Shown here: positions 17,500 to 20,689 of the stretch, piece after piece
Layout: every line of letters starts with the position of its first letter
How positions within the stretch are numbered: position 1 is the first letter of the stretch
IMG/VR virus record: IMGVR_UViG_3300044610_000068
Coordinates: 1 to 34,922 of that record
From: a virus
Reading direction: 5' to 3' (one strand)
DNA length: 34,922 nucleotides
The notes under the pieces: generated by a model
Database searches by the model: none
What the model saw: the letters and a program-made list of their open reading frames with translations, nothing else
Told to the model about the DNA's origin: nothing
Translations under genes and position numbers: made by a program

Positions 17500-17823
17500 T
17501 TAATAGTTAATTACAAGCAAGAACTCATCTTCATTTCGGACAATCTTATATTCATGCCCAAGTTCCTGACAAACCTTTTCAAACTCTTTCTGCTCTTTTG
17601 ATTGCTCACCTATTTCAGTCTTCCATTCAATCCATACTACTTTTCCTTCCGGTCTCAAGTAACACATATCAGCAACACCAGCAACTACACCCATCGCTTT
17701 ATTCATTGCTCCTTTAATTCCGTTTTGCGAGTTGTTATTAATGGCAAATACTCTATATCTCAAGTCTGGTCTAGTATTCCAAAGATTTACAAATGCTTTG
17801 GATTGTAGTTGGATTTCGTTCAT
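17500..17823 (-). CDS. VRR-NUC type nuclease
   Basis: A 107-residue protein matching the VRR-NUC branch of PD-(D/E)XK nucleases: GIKGAMNKAMGVVAGVADMC (D52), then WIEWKTEIGEQSKEQKEF with E66-x-K68, the catalytic pair, followed by the Gln-rich helix that often follows in this family. Phage members are stand-alone nucleases linked to recombination or junction processing. The ATG at 17823 overlaps the HNH stop (ATGA), so I prefer it to the ATG at 17832. It sits between HNH and terminase genes. Confidence 0.85.
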   Translation of the reverse strand: MNEIQLQSKAFVNLWNTRPDLRYRVFAINNNSQNGIKGAMNKAMGVVAGVADMCYLRPEGKVVWIEWKTEIGEQSKEQKEFEKVCQELGHEYKIVRNEDEFLLVINY

Positions 17824-18200
17824 AGCCACCAATGTCTTAAATGATGCTGTAACTTATGGCATCTAGTGCAAAGTACAATTATATTTTTTTCGTCAAACTC
17901 ACCTCCTTCGGCATAATCAATTATGTGAGCGCATTCTAAAGTATTACCAGCAGGAAGGTTCTTTTTCTCAATACCGCAGAAAACACACATAATATAATTA
18001 TATTTTTCAATGAATAATCTATTATCTTTTTGAGATGCAGGTCTTTTATTCTCATTTTTTTCAAGTGGTATCCAACTAAACTTACCACAGCTTGGACAAT
18101 TACCGCCTAATTGATTAGATCCGTTTGGGTGTTGTTTAATGTTTATCAATTGCTGTTTATTATTGCATCCAGCAACTCTACAAATTAGTATTTCGCTCAT
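17820..18200 (-). CDS. HNH endonuclease
   Basis: A 126-residue protein with two zinc-binding Cys pairs (C35/C38 in NCPSCG, C72/C75 in CVFC), the AH dipeptide (residues 91-92 of ECAHIIDYAEGG), N106, and CTRCHKLQHH at the end, a complete HNH/beta-beta-alpha metal site. HNH genes beside terminase often take part in DNA packaging cleavage, but many are homing endonucleases. Given the odd insert in terL 1 kb downstream, either role is possible. The gene starts just downstream of the iteron region. Confidence 0.88.
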   Translation of the reverse strand: MSEILICRVAGCNNKQQLINIKQHPNGSNQLGGNCPSCGKFSWIPLEKNENKRPASQKDNRLFIEKYNYIMCVFCGIEKKNLPAGNTLECAHIIDYAEGGEFDEKNIIVLCTRCHKLQHHLRHWWL

Positions 18201-18232
18201 AATCAGTTATTTAATTGTTACCTATCTCAGAA

Positions 18233-18539
18233 AGGTTGCAGGCTTGAAAAAAGGTTGCAGGCTTGGTTTCGTTTTTAGCTTTCATTATTGTTTGGTTATC
18301 AGTTAGTTAATTGTAAAAGGTTGCAGGTTGCAGGCTAATAATGCAAAAACGAGTTAGGGGCTGGGTATAATATAATATGTGTGCGTATGTGTGTGTGTGC
18401 GTATAATATATTCTCATACCCTTTATTACTGTTTTTTTATTAGAGCCTGCAACCTTCTTCTGTATTGCTTGGTATTAGTGGAGTTGAGAGGTTGCAGGCT
18501 ATTGATACACAGCCTGCAACCAACCTGCAACCTGCAACC
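18233..18539. repeat. Iteron cluster and AT-rich element: candidate replication origin
   Basis: This is the only gene-free stretch over 300 bases. The 11-mer GGTTGCAGGCT occurs directly at 18234-18244, 18253-18263, 18326-18336 and 18490-18500, and inverted (AGCCTGCAACC) at 18444-18454 and 18511-18521. Truncated copies occur at 18319-18327, 18522-18532 and 18531-18539. Copies at 18490 and 18511 form a perfect 11-bp inverted repeat with a 10-bp loop. Between the direct and inverted sets lies an AT-rich segment with TATAATATAATA and a GT-rich tract (18364-18420), a natural unwinding element. It sits between the primase-helicase and HNH genes. Binding partner unknown; the DnaA-IV-like protein at 25864 is a candidate. 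Confidence 0.72.
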
Positions 18540-18541
18540 CG

Positions 18542-20689
18542 TTAAAATGCAGCACCGAATCCTTTGCGAACCAAGTAAACAGTAATAACAGCACCGTCTT
18601 TCTTAATTCTTTTGCTTGGGTAGTTTAGTTTCTTGAGAATTATTCCGACCTTCTGATTTGATAGTGTGTGAATTTTTGAATCGGCTATCAAGTATTGAAT
18701 TATTGCAGTTATGCTCATCCATTCGCCATTCATTTCGCTTCCGACTGAAATACGATCGTAAATAAGTTCTTCTTCGATGGATGACTGTTTGAATGATTCT
18801 GTATTGTCGTTTAGCTGACTTATTTCATGTTTGAGAATAGAATAATCAAAACCAGCCATGTAAAGTGAATATACTTCATGCCATAGTTCGGTTTTATTGC
18901 ATTGATTATATAAGTCGTGATTGATACCATTTATGTGAATTGGAATAATGCGCCTGTTGCCCGTAGGGTCATTTAATATCTGGGTTTCATTACTTGTACC
19001 ACAAAACACACTTAAACGTCTTAAATCAACTGAAACACGCCCGTAAGGCTCTCTTACGTTTATCCATGCCTTAGAAGTTATTTCTTTGAGCCTCTTTTCT
19101 TCTCGTTTTGATTTTCCGCCGTATTCATCATCAAGTATTATCAGCTTCTTTGTCATTAGGATTTCATCATCCTTGCCTGCATCCATTTTTGATTCGGCAA
19201 AAAGTGGCTGGAGTTGTTGAGGTAAAAGGTATCGAAACCAATGTGTCTTTCCCGTACCTTGTACTTCACCACAGAAAACAAGTACCAATGGGGAATGTTT
19301 TCCAAATGCTGAAGCAACAACCGAAACTAGCCATTTCTTAACCCAAGTATCGTAGTTTTCGGTATCTGTTTGGATTGAGTTAAGAAGTAGCGCAAGATTG
19401 GGAAGTAACTCATCTTGTGATAATATTTCACGTTGAGTAAAGAAGTCAATTGCTGGGTTGTATGAATCAATTCGATTGCTAAATAGTATTGAGCAAACTA
19501 AATCTTTTGAAGCATCTTTAAAAGCAACCTTTGAATCAAGATATAGTGAATTAATATCGCTATCATCTATCGGCTTACCGTTTAGTTCTACGTTTCTTGA
19601 AAGCAGATTCTTTCGAATTTTATAAGGACGAAGAAATGAAACAATGTCATCGACTATGTTTTCAGATTTATGCTTAATATCCTTTTCGAGTACCTGCTTA
19701 ATTATTTCTTCACTATCCGCTTCATCAATTCCTGAAAAGTCTTTTAGTGTTTTTTTGATTTGATCGGGTTTAACTCCAGCGGCTTTTTGTGATGCCGCGG
19801 AGCGTATTATCTCTTTCGTCTGAGCCGAATAAGTATCTATACCGTTAATCTTCGCAAGGTGGTAAATCGTTCCAATGGTAGAAAGTTTAGCTTTGCTTTC
19901 TGATGAGTTCTTTAGGCACGAATCGAACTGCTTATCAGTATCAGATGCATTGTACTTGGATGAAATAGAACTAAGCACATGAAAATACTCACGCCCTTGT
20001 TCACCAAACTGACTAATTAAAGAATATGCAATCGAAACCCATTCAGAGTATTCTTCACAAAGGTTTATTTGCCTTTCGTTAAACTGGTTGATTATTAAAT
20101 CAAAATCATTCTTAACGAAAACAACACGACTAACTTTTTTCGGTTTTTCTTTTGGCAAATACTTTTTGAATGTTATTGCCTTTTCATTGATGTGAATAAA
20201 CGGATCGAATGAAACAAACCTAGCACGGGAAACATTCTTTCCTGACTGGTCAACTATTATCTGATATGATTCATAAAGATATGCAGCTATTGATTCAAAT
20301 GCATCGGCGTGTCGTGAGCCGTCAATCTTGAACAGGCAGCATAAGCCATTTCCTGAAATTGAAACGAATGCAGCATAGATATAACTATCTTTTGAGAGTA
20401 GTTCTTTGGTTGTATTAGCATTTTCGATATTGTCAATATCAATAGCGATATAACCGGAATGCTTTCGCAAGGCTGCATCCTTTCGCTCTTGAAACGAACC
20501 TGAAATAGTTACTAATGGGCATTTCTGTTTTTCTGCCGCTCGTTCTTTCTTGTCTTTAATGGTACGAACTTTTAAAACGTTGTCTTGCCATGCACCGGAC
20601 TTAATACCATTTAGGAAAGAATCAAGTTCTACATCTTGGTCGATGTTATCATGCACATTTTTGTAAGCTGATATTAAAGTTTTCTCCAT
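18542..20689 (-). CDS. Primase-helicase (BT4734-like N domain, VirE-type P-loop)
   Basis: A 715-residue replication protein. The N-terminal half has the BT4734/VirE-N primase-like fold features (SGYIAIDIDNIENANTTKEL; YIYAAFVSISGNGLCCLFKI), with conserved acidic residues in DIDN. Next comes a PriCT-like helical segment. The C-terminal half is a VirE/D5-like P-loop ATPase: Walker A GEVQGTGKTHW (about residues 475-485) and Walker B LIILDDEYGG (about 518). It likely primes and unwinds the phage origin. It overlaps the SF2 helicase stop by 16 nt and ends 3 nt before the iteron cluster. This type is common in Bacteroidota phages and mobile elements. Confidence 0.85.
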   Translation of the reverse strand: MEKTLISAYKNVHDNIDQDVELDSFLNGIKSGAWQDNVLKVRTIKDKKERAAEKQKCPLVTISGSFQERKDAALRKHSGYIAIDIDNIENANTTKELLSKDSYIYAAFVSISGNGLCCLFKIDGSRHADAFESIAAYLYESYQIIVDQSGKNVSRARFVSFDPFIHINEKAITFKKYLPKEKPKKVSRVVFVKNDFDLIINQFNERQINLCEEYSEWVSIAYSLISQFGEQGREYFHVLSSISSKYNASDTDKQFDSCLKNSSESKAKLSTIGTIYHLAKINGIDTYSAQTKEIIRSAASQKAAGVKPDQIKKTLKDFSGIDEADSEEIIKQVLEKDIKHKSENIVDDIVSFLRPYKIRKNLLSRNVELNGKPIDDSDINSLYLDSKVAFKDASKDLVCSILFSNRIDSYNPAIDFFTQREILSQDELLPNLALLLNSIQTDTENYDTWVKKWLVSVVASAFGKHSPLVLVFCGEVQGTGKTHWFRYLLPQQLQPLFAESKMDAGKDDEILMTKKLIILDDEYGGKSKREEKRLKEITSKAWINVREPYGRVSVDLRRLSVFCGTSNETQILNDPTGNRRIIPIHINGINHDLYNQCNKTELWHEVYSLYMAGFDYSILKHEISQLNDNTESFKQSSIEEELIYDRISVGSEMNGEWMSITAIIQYLIADSKIHTLSNQKVGIILKKLNYPSKRIKKDGAVITVYLVRKGFGAAF

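Follow-up and report, generated by a model that had tools for sequence, protein, structure and literature searches.

What purpose is served by a cluster of short repeats in the largest gene-free stretch of an uncultured phage, and which phage protein, if any, reads them? The stretch of DNA analysed (the window), a virus record of 34,922 bp from IMG/VR, carries nearly all of its genes on the minus strand, and the repeats occupy a gap of 341 bp (18201-18541), which is larger than any other in the window between open reading frames of at least 80 amino acids. Comparison of the locus with that of about 80 relatives, and covariation between the repeated word and one domain of a neighboring protein, led to the interpretation that the gap is a phage replication origin, with iterons that are read by the C-terminal winged helix of the adjacent primase-helicase, and that the word and the residues reading it evolve as a matched pair. 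The probability of this reading is put at roughly 0.87. The repeats thus very probably mark the start site of phage DNA replication, although neither replication nor binding data are available.

Nine exact copies of GGTTGCAGG are present within 18234-18539, and none elsewhere in the window. Six of the nine are the full 11-mer GGTTGCAGGCT, beginning at 18234, 18253, 18326 and 18490 on the plus strand and at 18444 and 18511 on the minus strand; the three additional GGTTGCAGG sites are at 18319 (+), 18524 (-) and 18531 (-). With up to one mismatch allowed, 16 matches to GGTTGCAGG occur in the window against 4.7 expected, a number reached by no shuffle. Between the repeats, at approximately 18365-18410, is a TATAATATAATA/GT core in which purines and pyrimidines alternate for 30 bp at 18375, the only long run of this kind in the window. 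A first-pass annotation made from the sequence alone had described at least six full and several partial 11-mers in both orientations around a GT/AT-rich element, a perfect inverted pair at the primase end, and the largest gene-free stretch of the window, all of which were borne out. Its judgment that this is no CRISPR array also stands; orientation is mixed and spacing irregular (7-110 bp), and regular direct repeats with spacers of constant length are absent. The core of the window (18375-18404), like that of the relatives, is of the alternating, Z-DNA-capable type and not a plain A+T-rich opening element, and duplex stability calculations place less stable DNA elsewhere in the window. Cumulative GC skew, proposed earlier as a check, gave no support to an origin, the curve falling through the 18234-18539 region without a turning point; however, in a genome whose genes lie almost entirely on one strand, the lack of a turning point does not refute an origin either. 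Table 1 gives the coordinates of the features.

Table 1. Features of the repeat locus and flanking genes (window positions).
Feature	Position	Strand	Basis
VRR-NUC nuclease, the usual gene past the origin in relatives	17500-17832	-	Pfam/PHROGs; relatives' neighborhoods
HNH endonuclease gene, accessory insertion beside the putative origin	17820-18200	-	Pfam; relatives' neighborhoods
Distal iteron pair, GGTTGCAGGCT	18234-18244, 18253-18263	+	Repeat and site search
Overlapping iterons, GGTTGCAGGTTGCAGGCT, 7-bp step	18319-18336	+	Repeat and site search
Alternating TATAATATAATATGTGTGCG...TGTGTGTGCGTATAATATA core (also given as TATAATATAATATGTGTGCG...GTGTGTGCGTATAATATA); candidate unwinding element, opening inferred	18362-18412	.	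Longest Pu/Py run; kept in relatives
Iteron separating core from primase end	18444-18454	-	Repeat and site search
Inverted iteron pair, 18490-18500 (+) / 18511-18521 (-)	18490-18521	.	Repeat search
Overlapping iterons adjoining the primase stop codon	18524-18539	-	Repeat/site search; layout in relatives
Primase-helicase, 715 aa, proposed initiator; BT4734-like_N, PriCT_2, VapE-like	18542-20689	-	Pfam/PHROGs; 7pds match
C-terminal winged-helix domain (~residues 639-715), proposed iteron reader; recognition helix 678-687, wing strands 692-697 and 700-709	18545-18775	-	AlphaFold2; covariation

The cluster does lie between the primase-helicase and HNH genes, as the first-pass annotation had it, but not on the start side of the primase; 18542 is the end of that gene and not its start, which places the site 3' to the primase gene and 5' to HNH. 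In the primase-helicase, Pfam recognized a VapE-like domain (3e-31) and, in the primase region, BT4734-like_N and PriCT_2, with no Toprim domain found. The DnaA-IV-like protein earlier suggested as the reader could not be recovered, no such protein being present among the open reading frames scanned with Pfam and PHROGs. VRR-NUC directly follows the origin region in 63 of 69 relatives, and HNH is missing there in most, which excludes HNH as reader; from these neighborhoods the HNH gene appears to be an incidental insertion. Nuclease genes were seen at these sites elsewhere too, HNH in a few relatives as well as the window, and another splitting the repeat array of Muminvirus mymlan6-1 (locus L144, 5756-6319), which suggests that homing-type nucleases insert at such origins repeatedly.

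A search of IMG/VR with the primase yielded 80 loci (numbered here with an L) at 57-86% identity, and a common arrangement of sites 3' of the primase stop was found in all of them except two truncated loci and one outlier, L080. In the primase sense, sites stand at about +1, +11, (-) +33 to +35, and +78, followed between about +115 and +155 by a (CA)n/TATA core (the alternating core of the relatives has a median length of 44 bp) and then by (-) sites at about +185 to +200, with further sites in many relatives at +250 and (-) +275. In the whole records of 12 relatives, the sites cluster at one place, plus single strays. The outlier L080 has GTTGCA/GGTGCA-rich repeats but lacks both a (CA)n core and a clear word; it lies off the residue-word map described below and was excluded from the tests. 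Two other loci, L038 and L078, belong to one contig (IMGVR_UViG_3300008259_000070, 40,001 bp) that has two primase-plus-origin copies with different words near its opposite ends, and is possibly a chimeric assembly.

Geometry is thus conserved while the word is not. Sixteen words of 11 bp were found in one register (TTGGACAACTT, TTGGACAGCTT, TTGGACTACTT, TTGGACCACTT, TGTTGCAACTT, TGTTGCAGCTT, TGTTGCCACTT, TGTATCAACTT, TGCATCATCTT, TGCACCACCTT, TTGGACAGGCA, TGCATCAGGCA, GTGGACAGGGT, GTGTAGGGGTT, GGTTGCAGGTT, and, in the window and L003, GGTTGCAGGCT), and a tree built on primase residues 1-620 requires at least 31 changes of word. The absence of the repeats from close relatives with the same primase had been offered as grounds for rejecting an origin; most relatives indeed lack the 11-mer of the window, yet another word occupies the same positions, and that test is therefore misleading.

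Outside this group the layout becomes patchy. Phage isolates related to the primase were found only at 35% identity or less, and a scan of genome contigs with a primase profile added only L243 and a distant Chitinophaga prophage; the winged-helix segment alone, used as query, found no isolate phage. The array of Muminvirus mymlan6-1 that the nuclease gene interrupts follows the primase and is made of AGGTTACCT repeats; contig L241 (37% identity) has GAACAGAT repeats flanking a TATATATA core, also after the primase; and P12024S has weaker ATTACATT-like repeats in that place. In contrast, the AAGTTATC repeats of phi46:1 precede the primase and follow the helicase, with none directly after the primase, and the Chitinophaga prophage has no iterons after its primase. 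The layout therefore reaches past the close clade without being universal. Since the isolate relatives are Cellulophaga, Nonlabens and Flavobacterium phages, the lineage is inferred to be of Bacteroidota type.

The identity of the reader was approached through primase pairs of 97-99% identity that are followed by different words, and their differences fall in a small C-terminal patch. Between L043 (TTGGACAGCTT) and L040 (TGTTGCAGCTT), 9 of about 707 primase residues differ, T696R, N699S and K701I among them; the changes at 696 and 701 recur in L076/L041, L079/L020, L023/L017 and L033/L028. A word with TGTTGCA as opposed to TGTTGCC is accompanied by Q691T, K692Q, T703R and F706L. When pairs with core identity of 85% or more were contrasted at each of the 715 residues, the top ranks went to residues 679 and 683 for word positions 9-11 (differing in 100% of different-word pairs and 0% of the others), residues 703 (100% vs 7%) and 692 (92% vs 0%) for position 7, and residues 701 (77% vs 5%), 696 and 699 for the left half. 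In the resulting map, positions 9-11 of the word go with residues 679/683 of the recognition helix; position 7 goes with 692/703 and positions 2-5 with 696-701, all of them in the wing. Sign tests on phylogenetically independent pairs agree with it: for GTTGC vs TGGAC at the left (n = 10), residue 696 changed in the same way in 9.5 and in the opposite way in 0, and residue 701 in 8 and 0; for GCA vs CTT at the right end, 3 of 3 pairs agreed at both 679 and 683; and for GCATC vs TGGAC, 4 of 4 agreed at 696, 698, 700 and 701. Some of these tests use just 3-4 independent pairs. The last 70 residues predicted the full word better than the first 620 (0.52 vs 0.25, core neighbors at 93% or above excluded), and four held-out loci (L215, L216, L240, L242) had the words expected from their residues, although three are near loci already used and L240 is the more informative.

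With a predicted structure available, the covarying residues could be placed in the two DNA-reading elements of a winged-helix fold, the recognition helix and the wing. AlphaFold2 modeled the isolated C-terminal domain with a pLDDT of 86.8 and the full protein with an overall pLDDT of only 67, the winged helix being present in both. The nearest solved structure to the full protein is PriRep1 on double-stranded DNA (7pds; Foldseek 4e-7, hmmsearch 2e-6). For the isolated domain the top fold matches are RFX1/RFX5 at Z 6-7, a level common among winged helices, and the origin-binding domain of P4 (1ka8) gave a VIA Z of 5.6, which many winged helices reach, and a Foldseek E of 0.5.

These findings identify a likely binder but not, by themselves, its purpose, and binding of the primase-helicase to the repeats could serve chiefly to control transcription of its own operon or of the nuclease/terminase operon downstream. 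Initiators frequently autoregulate, and the site does separate two co-directional gene blocks. Nevertheless, 8-10 sites across some 300 bp, in two arms around a conserved alternating core, are typical of an origin and too much for an operator; a location 3' of the primase is poorly suited to repressing it; and the equivalent anatomy in SaPIs is an origin (PMC7581432). An operator as the main function is thus considered improbable.

A packaging (pac or cos) site, with the small terminase reading the repeats and the neighboring HNH protein aiding cleavage, is held to be very improbable. TerS, TerL and HNH are encoded within 1-2 kb of the repeats, and certain pac and cos sites include short repeats; but no TerS residue tracks the word (at best 2.2 of 7 pairs, vs 6 of 7 for primase residues), most relatives have no HNH gene at this spot, the word follows the primase winged helix, and the conserved core looks like an opening element. 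In neighbor controls VRR-NUC and the DEAD helicase, like TerS, showed no tracking of the word, and all three were ruled out as readers.

Covariation might also be produced by linkage alone, if a block of wing and origin recombines as a unit and some other protein reads the sites. Part of the covariation is in fact linkage, as the reading residues and the origin are physically joined and sometimes swapped together: in L043/L040 the wing codons (the last ~60 bp of the primase gene) and the origin resemble an exchanged block, with conserved flanks and otherwise near-identical genomes, and synonymous changes at residues 691-710 are also raised (0.223 in different-word vs 0.093 in same-word pairs). 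Yet nonsynonymous changes over the same residues are about 30-fold in excess (0.289 vs 0.009 per codon, at 95% core identity or above), distinct residues follow distinct word positions across backgrounds, and VRR-NUC shows no covariation despite equal linkage on the opposite flank of the origin. In L079/L018, moreover, the sites were changed in place with the spacers conserved. Linkage as the whole explanation is accordingly given very little credence. Finally, chance or functionless expansion of a (CTGCAAC)n microsatellite, to which tandem GGTTGCAGG heptamers forming simple satellites in unrelated contigs might point, is practically dismissed by a geometry that stays fixed while words differ in ~80 relatives, by a top 6-mer count that none of 100 shuffles matched in 76 of 79 regions, and by the residue covariation. 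When all of IMG/VR was searched with GGTTGCAGGTTGCAGG, the hits were for the most part simple heptamer satellites lacking the architecture, and the word by itself is therefore no marker.

The iteron-type origin that the first-pass annotation had favored therefore remains the best supported reading, on the architecture in relatives and the covariation with the primase-helicase winged helix, and the type it resembles is that of SaPI PriRep and P4 alpha. A module of the SaPI type is expected to carry its iterons immediately 3' of the gene for the initiator, in arms around an A+T-rich or easily opened core, and the locus agrees; that a C-terminal domain sets iteron specificity is borne out through covariation only, with binding inferred. 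In the proposed mechanism, the primase-helicase, encoded immediately upstream, would bind two arms of 11-bp iterons through its winged helix, the recognition helix reading the right end of the word and the wing its middle and left; the alternating TATA/CACA core between the arms would likely be opened; and, by analogy with related initiators, the VapE-type AAA+ helicase might then load on the core and the primase domain start synthesis. Word and reading residues would co-evolve by two routes, the exchange of a short cassette of wing and origin in some cases and coordinated change in place in others. Of this scheme, the sites, their conserved geometry and the tracking of the word by residues come from the computed comparisons, and physical binding, core opening, helicase loading and origin activity are inferred. 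A broader proposal is only tentative, and is held at somewhat less than even odds: that the origin word is a fast-evolving replication address, read through the three-part residue map; that swapping or mutation of a ~400-bp cassette of wing and origin allows phages within a single population to re-key their origins, the probable selective advantage being avoidance of cross-replication or interference by co-infecting relatives or satellites; and that the protein sequence of a phage not yet seen suffices to tell its specificity. Avoidance of cross-replication as the cause of word drift is a guess.

An initiator and its origin must change jointly, and how they do so without a dead intermediate is hard to study. 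Natural pairs in which initiators 97-99% identical serve different words, with changes concentrated in one small domain, make both this co-evolution and the rules of winged-helix recognition directly testable. For locating origins in uncultured phages, the results indicate that a fixed geometry 3' of a VapE-type primase should be sought and not a fixed sequence. An iteron origin with its initiator encoded next door is a known class. The novelty lies in a phage lineage of Bacteroidota type that keeps the geometry fixed while the address drifts, with a natural map from residue to base and an unusual natural record of specificity switching; within the collection searched, no paper was found on such origins in Bacteroidetes or Flavobacterium phages.

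Several known systems share parts of this arrangement. RFX proteins read DNA largely through the wing, and the residue map suggests wing-based reading here as well, but RFX1/RFX5 are eukaryotic transcription factors and the likeness of their DNA-binding domain, although the best match, is in fold only. Plasmid iteron origins also have repeats beside an opening element, bound by winged-helix initiators, as is proposed here with a candidate element; plasmid Reps, however, are not helicases and the host DnaB is recruited, whereas the initiator of the window has its own helicase and primase. P4 alpha is a primase-helicase with a C-terminal winged-helix origin-binding domain; in the window a C-terminal winged helix is predicted, and its binding to the origin is inferred. 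P4 has a second, distant cluster of sites, crr, unlike the single cluster of the window and its relatives. P4 alpha also carries a Toprim primase (PMC4234260), which the BT4734-type primase of the window is not. In SaPIs, the C-terminal domain of Rep recognizes an iteron origin directly downstream of its own gene (PMC7581432), an arrangement matched here with recognition inferred by covariation, and SaPI PriRep/Rep (and SCCmec Cch2) similarly have a VapE/D5-type self-loading helicase, joined in PriRep to a primase. The present system differs in its BT4734-type primase domain, in 11-bp words with many natural variants, and in a long alternating (CA)n core. By this analogy the element would work like a SaPI Rep-ori but is not itself a SaPI satellite, as the window encodes its own TerS, TerL and tail genes.
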